Shown here: positions 26,245 through 60,983 of the stretch, in pieces | How the letters are laid out: the number at the start of each line of letters is the position of its first letter | How positions within the stretch are numbered: position 1 is the first letter of the stretch | Assembly: GCA_963678705.1 (NCBI GenBank) | Contig: OY783220.1 | Location: 1,509,001-1,573,000, forward strand | Length of the DNA: 64,000 bases | Source of the DNA: Panorpa germanica | Taxonomy: Eukaryota > Arthropoda > Insecta > Mecoptera > Panorpidae | Direction of reading: 5' to 3' | Notes under the pieces: generated by a model | The model's input: the letters and a program-made list of their open reading frames with translations, nothing else | Database searches by the model: none | What the model was told of the DNA's origin: nothing | Program-made: the position numbers and the translations under genes

Positions 26245-26570
26245 GCGATGAAAAAAGACACGCGCGGAAGCTCACCTGTATAAAATTAATATTAAATTGG
26301 ATGATAGATGCCAATGTGCGAATTTGGAACTTTAGATCATATTACATTTGAATGCATAAATTATAATATAGAAAAATCAAAATTCAATAGTGAATTATAT
26401 TAGATGTGATTAAAACTTTCCCGGTTTATACTAAATTTTTGTTAAGTGATTCAAAATTAATTAGTGAATTATTTAAATATTTATAAACGTTATGTTAAAT
26501 ATATATAAAAAATATTTGATGGTGGCTATGATGAATAAAAGCCAAGGCCAAATAAATAAAAGAAAAAAAA
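26245..26570 (+). mobile_element. I-like LINE, 5'-truncated 3' end
   Basis: Clearly related to 60,655-60,958 of the complete LINE: 'aaattaatattaaat', 'gatcatattac', 'gaatgcataaattata', 'gtgattcaaaattaattagt', then the 'gatggtggctatgatgaata' tail. The codons include remains of the C-terminal Cys/His motif but with frame breaks. An A-rich tail ends at about 26,570. 'aaaagatttgg' before and 'aaaaaatctgg' after may be a decayed target duplication. Confidence 0.75.
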
Positions 26571-45324: not shown

Positions 45325-45690
45325 ACTAGCTGTCCCGGCCACGCGTTGCTGTGACTAACGTTTTTGTCATATTACATTACATAGCGCCATCTATTGAATA
45401 TTTACTCAATCTAGTCAACAGATTTCGATTTACTCAACAGAATATTTACTCAATCTAGTCAACAGATGTCGCCATCATCGTCGCCCGATGTCATATGTCA
45501 TATACAGATAATTAATAGACAAATAATTAGCAATAAGATAAATAAATTGAGATGTAAGCTATCCTATCTTTCAAGTTGGGTCAAACTGCACACGGTGTAC
45601 AAATTTCATTAAAATCGGTTAAGTAGTTTAGGAGTCCATAGCGGACAACACAGTGACACCTAAAACAAATAAAGTACCTACTATATAGAA
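45325..45690 (+). repeat. Lepidopteran-type dispersed repeat (RTE/SINE-like)
   Basis: Begins 'ctagctgtcccggccacgcg' and ends with 'cggttaagtagtttaggag' and 'tccatagcggacaacacagt'. From memory this closing phrase belongs to a repeat very abundant in butterflies and moths. The first third contains a local 28-bp direct duplication ('actcaatctagtcaacagat' at ~45,404 and ~45,449). Family assignment is from memory. Confidence 0.6.
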
Positions 45691-45749
45691 AACAACTACA
45701 AAATGAAACTGTGTTTAAAAAGTAATATTACGATGATAATTATATCGCA

Positions 45750-46306
45750 TAAACAAATTAGCGCTGCATTCAACCGTGCAGTAGGGAGCCGACCGCGCGA
45801 GTGACCCGCGCGGCATGGTATCTCGTTGAGCTACACCCCTCTCCCGGCTTGCCCGCAAGCACCGCCTTTCTCCCGCCGCGCCGGCCAGCGCAGAGAGCGA
45901 GTTGGTTTTGTTTGGGAGTTATTTATCATTGTAATCTTTAAAGTTTTTTGTTGAAATACCATAAAAACGGTTTTTGTGAGTTAATCTTAAAAGATAGACA
46001 TATACTATCGCGGACTGTTTTTTAGATCATTAAAAGAGCTATTATTCTTTAATACATATTTTTTGTGTATCTTGAACCGTTTTCACGGCGCACGCAACGG
46101 AAGGCTTCAAAGATGAAATAATTTCTCCCGTTTTTTACACATTTACCACTATATCTTTGCTCCTATTGGTCGTAGCGTGATGTTATATAGCCGATAGCCT
46201 TCCTCGATAACTGGACTATCCAACACAAAAAGAATTATTCAATTCGAACCAGTAGTTTCGGAGATTAGCGCGTTCAAACAAACAAACTCTGTCGCTTTAT
46301 AATATT
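45750..46306 (+). repeat. Second lepidopteran-type repeat, interrupted near its 3' end
   Basis: It has a GC-rich block at 45,780-45,905 and then 'actatcgcggactgtttttt'. Its last part runs from 'atttctcccg' (46,121) through 'ccttcctcgataactggact' and 'ttagcgcgttcaaacaaac' to 'ctttataatatt' (46,306). The element at 46,308-48,083 follows. The repeat's 3' part is then seen again at 48,093-48,278. Confidence 0.65.
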
Positions 46307-46307
46307 T

Positions 46308-48083
46308 TTTTTTTATATTTATTCACTTATTTGCCTTGACTTTCTTTCGTCATAGCCACCAACAATCTTTTTTAAATACATCTTTTATAATTTATAATTT
46401 AATTTTACAAATTTATAAATATTTTAATATTTCACTAATTAATTTCCGTCCGTTCCACTGTATAATATCAATTTCTAGAAACCTTATTTACGAATAGACG
46501 CTATTTAATAATTATAATTTTATATGTTACTCTAATATGTATGCTCTTATATTATATTATTTTTATAATTTCGCTATTTTTTTCTTCCTCTTTCTATATT
46601 TTCAAATATAGAAAATTTATTTGAATCCGTCATGAATTTATTTCTTTCTTCATTTTTATTTTCACTAAAATTTTGTGATACTAATAATTTAGAGTTGGAT
46701 TGAATTTTTGGTACTTTTATGGACCTCTGAGAATTATTTTCTGTTTGTTCCTCGTCATTATCTTGTTCATTTTTTCTGTAATTGTTCCTTGTATTATAAG
46801 TTCTAGGTGTAGAATTTGTAATATAATTAATGAAACTTTGTTCTTTCTCATTCTGTTTAGTTTCAATTTTATTATCATTTATATTATTTTGTTTTTTAAT
46901 ATTTTCCTTTTTACAGTTTCTATCTAAATATGTTCTTTTTCTAATGGGTGCTGGCTTATATGATGGTATACTATTTTCACGACTTGTTAAATTTTGAGGA
47001 AAGTCCTTTTCATAATTAGATAATATATCAAATCTATTTTTTGTAGTTACAGCATACGAATTTTTGTCTTTCCAAATTTGAGGTATTTCAATAGCGGCTT
47101 CTTGATAACTAAGATTTCTGTTTCCCATTAAAATTTTTATTTCTTGTTGCCTTTTTATTTCTTTGCAATTTTTATCAGTCGCATCATGTTCTTCATCACA
47201 ATTTACACATTTTATAATTTCATTTTTACATAAATTTAGCGTATGTTCATTTGAACCACATTTGCTACATCTACTCTTTCCTTTACATTGATTGGCCGTA
47301 TGGTTATATCTTAAACATTTATAACATTGTCTCGTATTTTTAATAAATGGTTCACAGGGTAATTTAGCATTCCAAATATAAATATATTGAGGTAAATTTT
47401 GGCCTTCAAAGAAAATGATAATATTTCTAGAGTCCTCATATTTAATTTCATCTTCAACTTTCACTCTCCTTTTTAATCTCCTTATGGAGTGGATTTTATA
47501 AGGGTCACTATAAATGTTTTCTTTTAATTCTTCCTCCGAAAATTCAATATCTACATTTTTGATAATTCCAATTCTTGTAATCCAAAACATTGGTATAAAC
47601 ATATCAACTCCTGATGTTTTCTTGTTATTTAATTTCACTAACATATTAGCTGATTTAGGATTTTTACATACCGCCATTATTCTATTTTTCCCTATTTTCT
47701 TTATTTCTGTAATATCTTTTCCATATTCTGAATTATATAGAATTTTTGCTGTTTTTAATGTACTGATCCCATATTTTTCATTTAGAATATCTTCTTTCTG
47801 AATCATAATTTTATAAGAAGATAAAGTTAAATTATCTTCATTGTATAAATTTATATTGGGGTCAACTCCAACTTTCCCCTCAGAATTCAAATTCATTTTT
47901 TAAATTCAGAAAATTTGAATATTAAAATAATAATATTTTAGATAATGCAATTTTACTTTAAATTTAAATTTACTTTTTAATTAATTTATATATATGTATA
48001 TTTAATAATATTAGTTCAATTAAATTATTTTAAGGAAACAAACAAAACACGTCTATCACGTATCGAATGACTACTCGATTGTG
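46308..48083 (-). mobile_element. ORF1-only I-like LINE derivative (1.78 kb)
   Basis: Read on the - strand, it starts with the same 5' end as the complete LINE ('cacaatcgagtagtcattcg') and has the same 5' UTR and an intact ORF1. The sequence then jumps from 'cagtggaacggac' (matching 57,200) to 'aaattaattagtgaa' (matching ~60,828). This loses about 3.6 kb, nearly all of ORF2. It keeps the 3' UTR, the hairpin and an A-rich tail. 'ctttataatattt' flanks both sides (46,295-46,307; 48,084-48,096) as target duplication. A 31-bp loss near the ORF2 start is also seen. It needs an enzyme from elsewhere to move. Confidence 0.85.
46574..47896 (-). CDS. LINE ORF1 (Gag-like nucleic-acid-binding protein), intact, 440 aa
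   Basis: This is the only gene of the ORF1-only element. LINE ORF1 proteins coat the element RNA into a particle and act as nucleic-acid chaperones, in the cytoplasm and at the target. Residues about 25-185 form the folded N-terminal part. Three zinc knuckles follow from residue 191: CYKCLRYNHTANQC and CSKCGSNEHTLNLC (both C-x2-C-x4-H-x4-C), then CVNCDEEHDATDKNC (C-x2-C-x3-H-x6-C). The last ~150 residues are Asn/Lys-rich and look disordered. By eye about 92% of residues agree with the ORF1 at 55.7 kb. The start (MNLNSEGKVGVD) is shared by both. An unbroken frame without ORF2 suggests either youth or selection. Confidence is high for the family and low for present activity. Confidence 0.9.
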   Translation of the reverse strand: MNLNSEGKVGVDPNINLYNEDNLTLSSYKIMIQKEDILNEKYGISTLKTAKILYNSEYGKDITEIKKIGKNRIMAVCKNPKSANMLVKLNNKKTSGVDMFIPMFWITRIGIIKNVDIEFSEEELKENIYSDPYKIHSIRRLKRRVKVEDEIKYEDSRNIIIFFEGQNLPQYIYIWNAKLPCEPFIKNTRQCYKCLRYNHTANQCKGKSRCSKCGSNEHTLNLCKNEIIKCVNCDEEHDATDKNCKEIKRQQEIKILMGNRNLSYQEAAIEIPQIWKDKNSYAVTTKNRFDILSNYEKDFPQNLTSRENSIPSYKPAPIRKRTYLDRNCKKENIKKQNNINDNKIETKQNEKEQSFINYITNSTPRTYNTRNNYRKNEQDNDEEQTENNSQRSIKVPKIQSNSKLLVSQNFSENKNEERNKFMTDSNKFSIFENIERGRKK

Positions 48084-48092
48084 CTTTATAAT

Positions 48093-48290
48093 ATTTCTCC
48101 CGTTTTTTACACATTTACCACTATATCTTTGCTCCTATTGGTCGTAGCTTGATGTTATATAGCCTATAGCCTTCCTCGATAACTGGACTATCCAACACAA
48201 AAAGAATTATTCAATTCGAACCAGTAGTTTCGGAGATTAGCGCGTTCAAACAAACAAACTCTGTCGCTTTATAATATTAGTATAGATACG
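48093..48290 (+). repeat. Second copy of the repeat 3' end, right of the ORF1-only element
   Basis: 48,093-48,278 repeats 46,121-46,306 (186 bp) with two substitutions and then continues into 'agtatagat', the natural end of this repeat. Between the element's 5' end (48,083) and this copy lies 'ctttataat', identical to the unit's own end. That fits a pre-existing tandem array of a 183-bp unit into whose junction the LINE inserted. Confidence 0.75.
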
Positions 48291-55516: not shown

Positions 55517-55530
55517 AAATATTTTAAATA
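55517..55530 (+). repeat. Target-site duplication of the complete LINE
   Basis: 'aaatattttaaata' directly before the LINE 5' end recurs at 60,970-60,983 directly after its poly(A) run. The first base of the right copy may belong to the tail. Confidence 0.85.
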
Positions 55531-55723
55531 CACAATCGAGTAGTCATTCGATACGTGATAGACGTGTTTTGTCTTTTTCCTAAAAATAATTTAATTGAAT
55601 TAATATTTTTAAATACATATATATATATATAAATTATTTAAAAAGTAAATTTAAAGTAAAAGTAAAATTGTATTATTTAAATTATTATCATTTTAATATT
55701 CAAATTTTTTCTGAATTCTTAAA

Positions 55724-57043
55724 ATGAATTTGAACTCTGAGGGGAAAGTGGGAGTTGACCCCAATATAAATTTATATAATGAAGATAATTTATCATTATC
55801 TTCTTATAAAATTATGATTCAAAAAGAAGATATAACGAACGAAAAATTTGGGATCAGTACACTAAAAACTGCAAAAATGTTATATCATTCAGAATTTGGA
55901 AAGGATATTTCAGAAATAAAAAAAATAGGGAAAAATAGAATAATGGCTGAATGCAAAAATGCAAAATCAGCTAATATGTTAGTGAAATTGAATAATAAGA
56001 TAACATCAGGAGTTGATATGTTTATACCAATGTTTTGGACTACAAGAATTGGAATTGTAAAAAATGTAGATATTGAATTTTCGGAGGAAGAATTAAAAGA
56101 AAATATATATAGTTACCCTTATAAAATTCACTCCATAAGGAGATTAAAAAGAAGAATGAAATTTGAAGATGAAATTAAGTATGAGGACTCTAGAAATATA
56201 ATCATTTTCTTTGAAGGGCAAAATTTACCCCAATATATTTATATTTGGAATGCTAAATTACCCTGTGAACCATTTATTAAAAATACGAAACAATGTTATA
56301 AATGTTTAAGATATAACCATACGGCCAATCAATGTAAAGGAAAGAGTAGATGTAGCAAATGTGGTTCAAATGAACATACGCTAAATTTATGTAAAAATGA
56401 AATTATAAAATGTGTAAATTGTGATGAAGAACATGATGCGACTGATAAAAATTGCAAAGAAAGAAAAAGGCAACAAGAAATAAAAATTTTAATGGGAAAC
56501 AGAAATCTTAGTTATCAAGAAGCCGCTATTGAAATACCTCAAATTTGGAAAGACAAAAATTCGTATGCGGTAACTACAAAAAATAGATTTGATATATTAT
56601 CTAATTATGACAAGGACTTTCCTCAAAATTTAACAAGTTGTGAAAATAGTATACCATCATATAAGCCAGCACCCATTAGGAAAAGAACATATTTAGATAG
56701 AAACTGTAAAACGAAAAATATGAAAAAACAAAATAATATGAATGATAATAAAATTGAAAATAAACAGAATGAGAAAGAACAAAGCTTCATTAATTATATT
56801 ACAAATTCTACACCTAGAACTTATAATACAAGGAACAATTACAGAAAAAATGAACAAGATAATGAAGAAGAACAAACAGAAAACAATTCTCAGAGGTCCA
56901 TAAAAGTACCAAAAATTCAACACAACACTGAATTATTGGTAAACCAAAATTTTAATGAAAATAAAAATGATGACAGGAATAAATTCATGACGGATTCAAA
57001 TAAATTTTCTATATTTGAAGATATAGAAAGAAGAAAAACATAG
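55724..57043 (+). CDS. LINE ORF1 (Gag-like nucleic-acid-binding protein), 439 aa
   Basis: Its protein binds and packages the element RNA. The N-terminal part (to about residue 185) is conserved with the copy at 46.6-47.9 kb. Zinc knuckles begin at Cys191: CYKCLRYNHTANQC, CSKCGSNEHTLNLC, then CVNCDEEHDATDKNC. The knuckles and the segment just before them are nearly unchanged between the copies. The differences cluster in residues 20-150 and in the Asn/Lys/Gln-rich C-terminal third. The start MNLNSEGKVGVD is the first ATG after the 5' UTR and is shared by both copies. ORF2's first part is in the same frame but separated by five stops over 87 bp, so no read-through fusion is likely. High confidence in the assignment. 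Confidence 0.92.
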   Translation: MNLNSEGKVGVDPNINLYNEDNLSLSSYKIMIQKEDITNEKFGISTLKTAKMLYHSEFGKDISEIKKIGKNRIMAECKNAKSANMLVKLNNKITSGVDMFIPMFWTTRIGIVKNVDIEFSEEELKENIYSYPYKIHSIRRLKRRMKFEDEIKYEDSRNIIIFFEGQNLPQYIYIWNAKLPCEPFIKNTKQCYKCLRYNHTANQCKGKSRCSKCGSNEHTLNLCKNEIIKCVNCDEEHDATDKNCKERKRQQEIKILMGNRNLSYQEAAIEIPQIWKDKNSYAVTTKNRFDILSNYDKDFPQNLTSCENSIPSYKPAPIRKRTYLDRNCKTKNMKKQNNMNDNKIENKQNEKEQSFINYITNSTPRTYNTRNNYRKNEQDNEEEQTENNSQRSIKVPKIQHNTELLVNQNFNENKNDDRNKFMTDSNKFSIFEDIERRKT

Positions 57044-57130
57044 CGAAATTATAAATATAAAATAATACAGCAGCATACATATTAGAGGATCAGATAAAAA
57101 TATAATTTCTAAGTAGCGTTTATTTGTTAA

Positions 57131-57838
57131 AAAGTTATTGTAGAAATTGATATCTTCCACAACAAAATTAAAGAAGTAAATATTATACAGTGGAACGGAC
57201 AGAGCATTAGACACAAAAAAGACGATCTACAAAATTTATTAAAAACGCAAAATATTCATATAGCTTTGATTTCAGAAACATTTTTGGGAGAAAATATAAA
57301 TTTTAATATAAGAGGATATAATTTAGAAAGGGATGATAGAATACAAATTGGAAGAACAAATCCTCATGGGGGTACAGCCATTATTATACATAAAAGTATA
57401 AGATATAAAAGATTACATATTACTAAACCAGTAAACAATATGGAACTTACTGCAATTAGTACAAAATTAAATAATATTGAAATATGTATTACATCAATAT
57501 ACGTTCCTCCAGGACACAAAATTGACAGTTTAAAATGGAAACAAATGTACAGACAAATTAAATTACCAGTGATACTAACGGGAGATTTTAACTCACTTCA
57601 TCCATCATGGAATATAAACAACTTAATAAATTACGAAGGACAAGAATTGAATAAATTTATTGATGAAGAACTTCTTCATATAGCTAACAATGATTGTCCT
57701 ACAAGAGTACACCATCCTTATAGAAGAGATAGTATCTTGGATTTAACCCTTATTAATCCTAGAATAATGCACATGTTAATAGACTGGAAGGTATATATAG
57801 CATGGGGAGTGATCATTATCCCATACTTTTTAATTTAA
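57131..57838 (+). pseudogene. LINE ORF2, apurinic-like endonuclease part (frame-broken)
   Basis: The open frame begins after a stop at 57,128. The endonuclease starts with IIQWNGQSIRHKKDDLQNLL. Next come ALISETFL (catalytic Glu at 57,275), GGTAIIIH, ITSIYVPPG, LTGDFNSLHPSW (Asp at 57,584) and LDLTLINP. This enzyme nicks the target DNA to prime reverse transcription. The last signature, SDHYP, lies in another frame (57,808). The switch coincides with a (TA)4 run at 57,792-57,799, where one extra TA explains the shift. No in-frame ATG precedes 57,440, well inside the domain. Either the start codon was lost or initiation is unconventional. The copy is therefore probably unable to make a full ORF2. 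Confidence 0.85.
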
Positions 57839-60800
57839 CAAATTCAAATAATGTTGACATAGGTAGAACAAGGAATTATATCACTAGAAGAAATTTCAAA
57901 AAAGCTGACTGGAATGAGTATCAAAATATTATATCCAATAAACTTGATAATGGTTCAAATTTATATATCAGCTATGAGCATTTAATTAATACCATAAATG
58001 AGTCAGCGGAGGAAAGTATTCCATGCACTAAAATTTATAATAAGGACCCAAAACATGAAAAACCCCTATGGTGGGACAGCAATTGTAATAAAATGGTTGC
58101 TAAAAGGAGATTAGCTTTAACTAAATTTAATAGAAATTCTAATATGGAAAATTATCTAAATTTTAAAAAGGAACAAGCAAACACACAAAAGTATTTTAGA
58201 ATAAGAAGGAAGGAGGAATACAAGAAATTTTGTGAAAATATTAAGCCAAAAACTCCAGCTAAATTAATTTGGGGAGTAGTGCATAAATTATCAAGACCGA
58301 ATATAAATCAGAACACCAGAAGTATGAATAATGATTGGATTGAAGAGTTTGCTAGAAATTATTGTGGTAACTACAATATCATTTCAAGGCCGTATATTCA
58401 AAATTTTAAAGTAGTAGAATTTTTAGATAAATCAATAGAGTTAGAAGAATTAAATTACAGTTTAAATCATAACAAGAAAACAAGTACTGGTATTGACAGA
58501 ATCTCATATGAAATGATCCAAAACTTACCTAAAAGCGCCAAAATTGCCCTAATTAACAATTTTAATAATATATTTAATACCAGAATAATTCCTAGTGATT
58601 GGAAAAATCATATTATTGTCCCTATTTTAAAATCTGGAAAGAATCCTGAAGTAGCATCATCATATCGACCAATTACTTTAATATCATGCGTAGCCAAAAC
58701 AATGGAAAATATTTTGAAAAACAGATTAGAATGGTATTTAGAACACAACAATAAATTACCAGATTCGCAATTTGGATTTAGAAAAAATCGAAGTGTGCAT
58801 GACAGCTTAAATATATTCAATCTGGACATTCAAAAAACGTACAGCTCTAATAAATACATGCTAGCTGTGTTCTTAGATATTAAGGGAGCTTATGATGCAG
58901 TTACATATCCTAACCTACAACTGAAATTAAGAGAAATTGGAATAACCAGCAAAATTACAAATTGGTTAGTGTCATATTTTGAATTGAGATCCATTTATGT
59001 AAGAAATGAAGAAAATTTAATAGGACCATTTACCTGCAATAAAGGCCTACCTCAAGGATCTATTCTTAGTCCACTTTTATACACAATATATTCTAAAGAC
59101 ATTTCTAAATTAAAAGACGATCACACATTTATTTTACAATTTGCAGATGATATTGTTTTATATAGTATTGGCCCATCCATAGAATGTTTAAGGAAGAGAA
59201 TTAACAAGAAATTATGCAAATTAAGAGATATATTAGACAAAATTGAATTAGAAATCTCAGTAGAAAAATCTCAAGCTGTCATTTTTACTAGACACAAAAT
59301 TATATCAAGTCCGAGGATAATATATAATAACAAAAATATTATTATATCAAATAGAGCAAAATTCTTAGGTATTTGGTTTGATTGTAAATCTACTTGGAGC
59401 TTCGAAATTGATAAAATTATACTTAAATGCAACAGAGGAATAAATGTTTTAAGAAGTCTAGCAGGAAGTAAATGGGGAGCTCATCCTATTTCTTTACTAC
59501 AAATTTATCAAGCAATTATAAGTTCACATTTAGACTATTCAAGTATATTAATTAGTACAGCTTCCAAATCAAGATTATTAAAATTGGATAGAATACAATA
59601 CAGAAGCTTAAGAATCGCTTTAGGTTGCATGACTTCAACTCCAACTCATATACTTCAAGCTGAATCTAATATAGCTCCATTACAATTTAGAAACCAACTG
59701 CTTAGTGATAAATTTTATGTTAAATGTGAAACATTATCGAAATTCCAAATTATTGATAAAATTAAATTATTAACTACATATATTCAAAACTCTTCTTACT
59801 GGATCAAAAAGAATAAACCTATTTTAATAAATAGTTACATGAAATTAAAGGATCTAAATATACAAAGAAATTCGAAATCGCCTATATACTCTATTCCTTT
59901 TGAATCATTAATTAAACCTATGGATATATATATTAACACAAAATTATTGTCAAAATCTTTTAATAATGCGATAAATAATGAAAATTTTTTAAATATAATG
60001 CATCAATTTAATATAAATTTTACAAAAATAATATATACAGATGCATCCATTGATTTAGAAAGAAATGGAGCAGGATTTGCTATATATGAACAGATAAATT
60101 TAAGATATTATAAATATAAATTAAATAACAAAGTTTGCTCTTACACTGGAGAAAAATTAGCATTATTAAAAGCATTGGAAATTAATGAAAATATCAACAA
60201 TAATAAAATTATAATAATAACGGATTCTTTAAGTGTTTTAAAAAATTTAAATTCAAATGATAACAAATCAAATAATAATATTTTAACATGCAAAATTAAG
60301 AAGATGTATTTCAATATAATAAATAGGAATAATACCATAAAATTTATGTGGATACCAGGACACTGTGGAATAAGAGGAAACGAAATTGCGGATAAATTGG
60401 CAAAGGAATCAATAAATTTGGAAATTGAGATGAGAGTGAAATTACCTTCATATGAAATTTTTAATATAATCAAAAAATTTTACTTCAATTTAAGAAACAC
60501 AGATTTCATTAACAAAAGTCAGTTAAAAGGAAGAGATTATTATATGTTGCATCCAAATTTAAGTAAGAAGAGATGGTTTAGAAATGAGTCCCGCAAAATT
60601 ATATCAACTATAATCAGAATCAAAAGTAATCATTGCAAAACTCCAGCTCATCTGTACAAAATTAATATTAAATCCGACGATAGATGTCAATGTGGTGAAG
60701 AAGGAACTTTGGATCATATTATATTTGAATGCATAAATTATAGTTTAGAAAGATCAAAATTGAATAGTGGTATATTAGATGTGATTAAAACTTTTCCTGT

Positions 60801-60882
60801 TAATACTAAATTTTTGTTAAGTGATTCAAAATTAATTAGTGAATTATTGAAATATTTAGAAATGTGTAAAATTGAATTATAA
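57802..60882 (+). CDS. LINE ORF2, reverse transcriptase and RNase H part, 1026 codons open
   Basis: It opens with MGSDHYPI, the last endonuclease block, so the ATG at 57,802 is just the frame entry and not the true start. RT blocks in order are IIVPILKSGK, SYRPITLISC, QFGFRKNRS, AVFLDIKGAYD, GLPQGSILSPLL and QFADDIVLY, with catalytic Asp449-Asp450. RNase H follows: YTDAS (Asp747), GEKLALLKA (Glu784), ITDSLS (Asp808) and PGHCGIRGNEIADKLAKES (His854, Asp864). A C-terminal CQCGEEGTLDHIIFEC motif begins at Cys962. All key residues are present and there are no stops over 3 kb, so this part has been inactive only briefly, if at all. The protein copies element RNA into DNA at the nicked target and removes the RNA strand. 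Confidence 0.92.
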   Translation: MGSDHYPILFNLTNSNNVDIGRTRNYITRRNFKKADWNEYQNIISNKLDNGSNLYISYEHLINTINESAEESIPCTKIYNKDPKHEKPLWWDSNCNKMVAKRRLALTKFNRNSNMENYLNFKKEQANTQKYFRIRRKEEYKKFCENIKPKTPAKLIWGVVHKLSRPNINQNTRSMNNDWIEEFARNYCGNYNIISRPYIQNFKVVEFLDKSIELEELNYSLNHNKKTSTGIDRISYEMIQNLPKSAKIALINNFNNIFNTRIIPSDWKNHIIVPILKSGKNPEVASSYRPITLISCVAKTMENILKNRLEWYLEHNNKLPDSQFGFRKNRSVHDSLNIFNLDIQKTYSSNKYMLAVFLDIKGAYDAVTYPNLQLKLREIGITSKITNWLVSYFELRSIYVRNEENLIGPFTCNKGLPQGSILSPLLYTIYSKDISKLKDDHTFILQFADDIVLYSIGPSIECLRKRINKKLCKLRDILDKIELEISVEKSQAVIFTRHKIISSPRIIYNNKNIIISNRAKFLGIWFDCKSTWSFEIDKIILKCNRGINVLRSLAGSKWGAHPISLLQIYQAIISSHLDYSSILISTASKSRLLKLDRIQYRSLRIALGCMTSTPTHILQAESNIAPLQFRNQLLSDKFYVKCETLSKFQIIDKIKLLTTYIQNSSYWIKKNKPILINSYMKLKDLNIQRNSKSPIYSIPFESLIKPMDIYINTKLLSKSFNNAINNENFLNIMHQFNINFTKIIYTDASIDLERNGAGFAIYEQINLRYYKYKLNNKVCSYTGEKLALLKALEINENINNNKIIIITDSLSVLKNLNSNDNKSNNNILTCKIKKMYFNIINRNNTIKFMWIPGHCGIRGNEIADKLAKESINLEIEMRVKLPSYEIFNIIKKFYFNLRNTDFINKSQLKGRDYYMLHPNLSKKRWFRNESRKIISTIIRIKSNHCKTPAHLYKINIKSDDRCQCGEEGTLDHIIFECINYSLERSKLNSGILDVIKTFPVNTKFLLSDSKLISELLKYLEMCKIEL

Positions 60883-60920
60883 ATTATAAAAGATGTTAAA
60901 AAATTATTTGATGGTGGCTA

Positions 60921-60936
60921 TGACTAAAGAAAGTCA
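60921..60936 (+). other. LINE 3' hairpin
   Basis: 'tgact' and 'agtca' pair around a six-base loop, just before 'aggcaaag' and the A tail. The same TGAC/GTCA stem with different loops is present in the - strand LINE (46,337-46,352) and in the short tail at 33.8 kb, so it is likely the site where the reverse transcriptase recognises the RNA. Confidence 0.6.
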
Positions 60937-60983
60937 AGGCAAAGAAGAAAATAAATAAAAAAAAAAAAAAAATATTTTAAATA

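Follow-up and report, generated by a model that had tools for sequence, protein, structure and literature searches.

The genome of Panorpa germanica contains a lineage of LINE derivatives that have kept ORF1, which encodes the Gag protein, and have lost all but a stub of ORF2; its members have inserted on their own, and some have also been carried by a Helitron. We consider it very likely that this is a Gag-only lineage of an RNase-H-bearing LINE, which makes its own Gag, borrows ORF2 from other elements and was later spread by the Helitron as well. The starting point was a window of 64,000 nucleotides (contig OY783220.1 of assembly GCA_963678705.1, positions 1,509,001 to 1,573,000), in which a first-pass annotation had pointed out one such element. 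As far as the open-access literature we examined goes, two features are new, namely that the Gag-only lineage is dispersed and stems from an RNase-H-bearing LINE, and that a Helitron has secondarily amplified it.

The window copy lies on the minus strand (46308..48083) and consists of a 5' UTR, ORF1, an intergenic stretch, the deletion junction, a 3' UTR and an A tail. As the first-pass annotation had stated, both ends of the LINE are kept, ORF2 is removed and ORF1 is open (46574..47896, minus strand; 440 amino acids). Alignment to a full-length copy in the same window gave 92.7% identity over 55517-57153 and 88% over 60829-60968 of that copy, with ~3.63 kb (~57200-60828) absent from the shorter element. 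The ORF1 proteins of the two copies are 92% identical, which agrees with the difference of about 8% reported before. CCHC knuckles were read by eye at about residues 191-223, followed by a third, irregular knuckle, and searches of PDB and Pfam returned only weak matches for the zinc knuckles. ORF1 was also modelled with AlphaFold, based on two sequences, but a mean pLDDT of 31.9 made the model unusable, and no relatives of ORF1 were found in viral contigs.

At the junction, CAGTGGAACGGACGGAAATTAATTAG (46435..46460, minus strand), the start of ORF2 is fused to its end; the full-type states at the two break points are seen at 57188 and about 60829 in the full copy of the window. A second deletion, of 30 bases, lies just upstream of the ORF2 start. 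Both deletions preserve the ORF2 frame and leave an in-frame stub of 24 codons without an ATG (46413..46487, minus strand), which reads IRFLEIDIIQWNGRKLISEILKYL up to its stop and links the initial residues of the endonuclease with the final ones of ORF2; we assign no function to it. We rejected an origin of the deletion from a spliced RNA because, as judged by eye, the removed stretch does not start with GT and end with AG. The element is bordered by a target duplication, AAATATTATAAAGC (3' copy 46294..46307, 5' copy 48096-48083, minus strand), which proved real, with 14 bases by our count and 13 by the earlier one.

The full-length copy of the window (55517..60968, plus strand; ORF1 at 55724-57043) belongs to the same LINE family. 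It resembles the ORF1-only element in its 5' end, ORF1, 3' end, A-rich tail and size of target duplication, but it keeps ORF2, and its type of ORF1 differs by 5.4% on average and forms a separate clade. Its ORF2 (57266-60882) is split by a frame break into two overlapping ORFs, in which Pfam identified endonuclease, reverse transcriptase (RT) and C-terminal RNase H domains. This is the domain content of the I-type, RNase-H-bearing LINEs, the broad group to which we take the parent family to belong.

Among related copies, 13 carry an open ORF2 frame of 1251 amino acids without a stop, and 12 of these also have an open ORF1 of 439 amino acids, the other (L045) being cut within ORF1. To judge from their reading frames, these 13 copies could supply the enzyme to ORF1-only elements. 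Target duplications of 10-14 bp were present in 14 of 14 full copies measured, namely those among 20 with a 5' end that our script could recognise, and the tails of full copies are A-rich, similar to those of ORF1-only copies. The full-type ORF2 start, searched as a 35-base pattern with up to two mismatches, which misses more diverged copies, matched at the same place in 31 cases. Full-type 3' ends numbered 906 within three mismatches, a single one of them, at C1:24665684, having one mismatch, and we infer that they come mostly from 5'-truncated and older copies. At the 5' break of the deletion, one full-type copy (L140, C6:16022040) shows the same base state as the deleted elements, and this break may have occurred in a relative of that kind. 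A sister LINE family at C20:1339133 and similar places has an ORF2 protein ~46% identical, with several uninterrupted ORF2 matches. Elsewhere in the window, two overlapping pieces at 26454-26555 match the LINE 3' end with 82-84% identity and are probably the remnant of an older truncated copy.

Searching the genome (464 Mb) for the 26-base deletion junction with up to two mismatches gave 190 matches, and the reversed control gave none. This confirms that the ORF1-only LINE of the window belongs to a multicopy lineage, and a private deletion at one locus, which would have undone the first-pass reading, is rejected by these 190 copies with their different flanks and separate duplications. Both flanks were examined in 37 copies from 41 places of closest matches. 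We also examined every one of the first 54 exact junction places as listed, four of which had come via the closest-match set. Helitron sequence flanked 19 of the 54 (two inverted pairs included), and the remaining 35 had other flanks. Copies without Helitron flanks are called independent below.

The window copy is of the first kind. It lies inside a non-autonomous Helitron of 2961 bp (45326..48286, minus strand; TC...CTAG) that starts with TCTATACTAATATTATAAAG at 48286 and ends with GGGACAGCTAG at 45326, with a host A at 48287 and a host T at 45325. Identical ends are present in the window copy (L001) and in L004, L005 and L008, the host flanks differ in all four, and comparing the four outwards showed similarity from TCTATACTAATATTATAAAG, after a host A, to GGGACAGCTAG, before a host T. 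All four copies thus have the 5' TC and the 3' CTRR that characterise Helitrons and, as is also typical, sit between A and T with no target duplication. A possible hairpin near the 3' end is weak (-6.3 kcal/mol with RNA parameters). The same LINE duplication with the same immediate flanks (~20 bases on each side) occurs in 25 of the 37 closest copies, one more (L002) has the Helitron flank on its 5' side only, and 11 have flanks of their own. The combination of one LINE duplication, one pair of Helitron ends and different host flanks points to rolling-circle spread of the composite. On this sequence evidence, the window copy is a Helitron passenger and did not arrive by retrotransposition as a LINE, the route that the first-pass annotation had implied.

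The LINE is placed between two tandem copies of the first ~190 bp of the Helitron. The first unit, at the 5' end of the Helitron, measures 203 bp up to the LINE (48084..48286, minus strand), and the second, together with the remainder to CTAG, measures 982 bp (45326..46307, minus strand). We rejected a long (~190 bp) target duplication as the source of the repeated flank: some carriers have two or three tandem units but lack the LINE, and the first unit ends in bases that are missing from the single-unit state. The empty duplicated carrier junction had 54 matches (control 0); of four such loci, L114 and L117 have two units and the overlapping L115 and L116 have three. Since duplicated carriers without the LINE exist, the tandem duplication would have come first, followed by insertion of the LINE with its 14-base duplication and then by rolling-circle spread.

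The 5' junction between Helitron and LINE was found 100 times (control 0), 71 times in the form of the window and 29 times in a one-base variant; the pattern spans the LINE 5' end only and does not imply a whole element in each case. In the one variant copy whose 3' side was examined (L139), the ORF1 stop is soon followed by a complete second Helitron 5' end, in place of the LINE junction and 3' end. Among 100 listed ORF1 ends of the ORF1-only type (of 217), 61 are followed by the exact deletion junction, 21 have the variant Helitron junction at the right distance upstream, 7 lie downstream of the window-type Helitron junction without the exact deletion junction and 11 have neither.

We compared two classes of changes in ORF1, private ones seen in one copy only, which are mostly post-insertion, and shared ones seen in at least two independent copies, which were inherited from source elements. 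With nothing excluded, 42 independent copies, 20 of them classed as independent from the 3' flank only, gave 14 nonsynonymous to 14 synonymous shared changes (14N:14S) against 72N:24S private ones (Fisher p=0.019), and stops made up none of the 28 shared variants against 7 of the 96 private ones. Variants present in three or more copies stood at 9N:8S (p=0.08). Three subsets, with a region split and exclusions chosen after the data had been seen, gave p<0.001: without minor alleles equal to those of the full-length element (4:10 shared against 69:19 private, p=0.0004), without four copies that contain tracts of full-length-type alleles (5:11 against 60:17, p=0.0005) and in codons 1-330 (5:13 against 47:18, p=0.0009). 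No constraint was seen in codons 331-437, the C-terminal quarter (9N:1S shared against 25:6 private), where inherited variants are nearly all amino-acid changes, suggesting that this region is relaxed or changing. A first run with 25 copies had shown a stronger contrast (3N:8S against 49:11) than the 42 copies. Dropped before the counts were L010, L035, L122 and L131 (little or no ORF1), L119 (no ORF1), L018 (an inverted duplicate of L017) and L034 (the same place as L005), and the counts are disturbed by full-length alleles in some ORF1-only copies, due to gene conversion or to ancestral states.

As a control, 38 Helitron-borne copies showed no contrast (5:2 shared against 73:21 private), with only seven shared variants, and the shared variants of independent and Helitron-borne copies did not differ significantly (14:14 against 5:2, p=0.41). 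In 21 full-length copies the ratios were 6:4 shared and 18:6 private (p=0.43). On the stem of the ORF1-only lineage we counted 18N:13S, an omega of ~0.37 (p=0.007 against the neutral fraction, with a neutral N:S ratio of ~3.8:1 without stops taken from the first run); the stem was polarised by two older copies (L099 and L100), which left 14 of 71 differences unpolarised, and it may partly predate the deletion. The lower share of amino-acid changes among shared than among private variants makes it probable that Gag was still needed once ORF2 was lost. We also observed that ORF1-only and full-length copies agree in their majority states over 222 bases in codons 208-281 (window ~47275-47054), zinc knuckles included, which contrasts with a base difference of >5% over the whole ORF1; as synonymous sites are included, the cause may be gene conversion or a constraint acting on the RNA.

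Much of this bears on the alternative that the element is moved wholly in trans, like a long SINE, with its relatives giving both the ORF1 and the ORF2 protein and with its own ORF1 a remnant that is open as the copies are young. We judge this unlikely, as the excess of synonymous changes among shared relative to private variants in independent copies, the lack of stops among shared variants and the low omega of the stem all speak against a remnant, even though the C-terminal quarter shows no constraint and the 92% identity between the ORF1 proteins of the two lineages makes sharing plausible. The open frame itself is no argument against it: ORF1 is open in 24 of 29 Helitron-borne and in 22 of 27 independent copies, although Helitron movement should not need ORF1, and this equality means that young age explains the open frames, in keeping with movement in trans. 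We therefore rejected openness as a sign of selection. The first-pass annotation had read the open ORF1 as the mark of a lineage under selection; the inherited changes favour such selection, whereas the openness of this ORF1 is no evidence for it.

Transposition of the ORF1-only element as a LINE is seen in the independent copies. Among 24 with both ends read, 20 have a target duplication of their own of at least 9 bases and 18 one of at least 11 bases, against 16 and 1, respectively, of 552 swapped flank pairs. The exceptions are L123 with none, L127 and L130 with only 6 bases and L003, whose duplication was 13 bases in the first comparison and only 7 under the stricter rule used for these counts; that of L131, with 10 bases, is of low complexity. 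Several independent copies are 5'-truncated, as expected from reverse transcription. A tree was built from 91 ORF1 sequences (33 independent ORF1-only copies, 36 Helitron-borne copies, the window copy a second time, 18 full-length copies and 3 others). In this tree, a single clade (support 99) unites the 70 ORF1-only sequences, and the full-length copies group in a second one (support 100). Inner nodes are mostly weak; all Helitron-borne copies fall within one inner, weakly supported group, and 15 ORF1-only copies, all of them independent, branch outside it in four branches. Independent ORF1-only copies differ in ORF1 from full-length copies by 5.4% on average and among themselves by 0.8%, and Helitron-borne copies differ among themselves by 0.45%. 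L011 and L028, which share the junction and are truncated at the 5' end, have 24 and 22 differences from the main group over the part they retain and look like an older branch of the lineage.

These data leave little of the view that nearly all copies come from Helitrons or segmental duplication and that the LINE derivative jumped a few times at most. Both Helitron flanks in 25 of 37 top matches, Helitron flanks at 19 of the first 54 junction places and the 100 Helitron-LINE 5' junctions would suit it, but it does not account for the 35 places with other flanks, for the target duplications in 20 of 24 independent copies or their truncations, or for the 15 independent copies outside the (weakly supported) group with all Helitron-borne ones. 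It is true for the window copy and refuted for the lineage as a whole, for which we regard it as highly improbable. A full-length parent with an ORF1 of the ORF1-only type was not found, since all 31 full-type ORF2 starts lie more than 8.9 kb from the 100 listed of 217 ORF1 ends. That the deletion arose repeatedly in different full-length copies, as HAL1 is described to have arisen several times in mammals (PMC5753468), is scarcely credible in the face of a single junction, a single clade and no full-type ORF2 start near those ORF1 ends.

We therefore return to a Gag-only lineage with a borrowed ORF2. The loss of ~3.63 kb of ORF2 from a full-length ancestor was a single event, as one shared junction and one clade show. 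The shortened element, in which ORF1 and both ends survive, would make its own ORF1 protein, and its reverse transcription and insertion would be carried out by the ORF2 enzyme of full-length relatives that have the same 3' end and tail. We infer this use of ORF2 in trans because the two kinds of element have a 3' end in common, their target duplications are alike and copies with an open ORF2 exist. The substitution patterns suggest that ORF1 remained under purifying selection after the loss and that the element's own Gag was most likely required on its own RNA. The cycle would thus run from the element's transcript to its own Gag, to borrowed ORF2 and to target-primed insertion. Later, one young copy would have landed in a non-autonomous Helitron whose 5' region was already duplicated, and the composite would have spread by rolling-circle transposition, with the window copy as one passenger.

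L1 lacks RNase H, as do the jockey-type relatives of HeT-A. The lineage described here is not HAL1 (half-L1) proper, which descends from mammalian L1, as its parent is a LINE with a CCHC-type ORF1 and with RT and a C-terminal RNase H in ORF2. We know of no report of Helitron-LINE junctions for HAL1. HAL1, described as a non-autonomous LINE derivative that encodes only ORF1p and has several origins in mammals (PMC5753468), is likewise a LINE derivative with ORF1 only, and the present copies share with it an intact ORF1, a deleted ORF2, both LINE ends and multicopy spread by target-primed insertion, with their own duplications and an A tail. HeT-A of Drosophila is described as a Gag-only non-LTR element that obtains its enzyme from other elements, whose Gag conservation suggests negative selection and which is confined to telomeres in head-to-tail arrays (PMC5537684). 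It shares with the window lineage the Gag-only state and, as we propose, an enzyme from elsewhere, but its arrays are telomeric, whereas the copies found here are dispersed within many contigs and have target duplications. The idea that the window element is an insect counterpart of HAL1 was borne out as regards a Gag-only lineage, with 190 junction copies; a Gag-only LINE is, however, already known as a kind, with HeT-A as the insect example (PMC5537684). Beyond HeT-A and HAL1, we recognised no other Gag-only or ORF1-only insect LINE in titles and abstracts of the open-access literature.

The carrier, too, has known counterparts. The non-autonomous Helitrons Hel-2 and Hel1 of insects are described with 5' TC, 3' CTAG or CTRR, A/T flanks and internal tandem repeats or captured DNA, and ends of this kind are reported from moths and other insects (PMC4344730, PMC6544945). 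The window carrier has the same ends, flanks and tandem repeats, but what it carries is a whole LINE derivative whose gag is open and which had inserted by its own mechanism before the Helitron spread.

It has long been asked whether the Gag of a LINE works mainly on the RNA of its own element, and a lineage without ORF2 that seemingly keeps its Gag under selection is a natural experiment on this point. The same Gag carried by a Helitron, where it should not matter, is an internal neutral control, and the 190 junction copies, 100 Helitron-LINE 5' junctions, 54 empty-carrier matches and 13 open-ORF2 copies offer the material for a decisive count. A Helitron that amplifies an intact retrotransposon gene is also a route by which a defective LINE may persist or travel.

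A more speculative extension, to which we give a low probability, is that the two unrelated transport systems feed each other. If so, Helitron-borne copies would act as scattered source genes for retrotransposition, their RNAs being processed by full-length ORF2, and the second Helitron form, with a Gag gene and without the LINE 3' end, could provide Gag protein or a decoy in trans. The Helitron-borne elements showed three further peculiarities. The contig that contains the window (C17, 14.1 Mb) holds 18 of the 71 window-type Helitron-LINE junctions by hand count, against ~2.2 expected by size, an excess that may be due to local spread, to a sex chromosome or to effects of the assembly. At C1:16281870/16283866, C2:21341682/21343942 and C16:328860/332404, in Helitron context, two ORF1-only copies lie inverted to each other at a distance of a few kb. 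At another locus (L138, C14:16073560-16074600), two like Helitron 5' ends lie ~280 bp apart, and the second begins in the LINE 5' UTR carried by the first.
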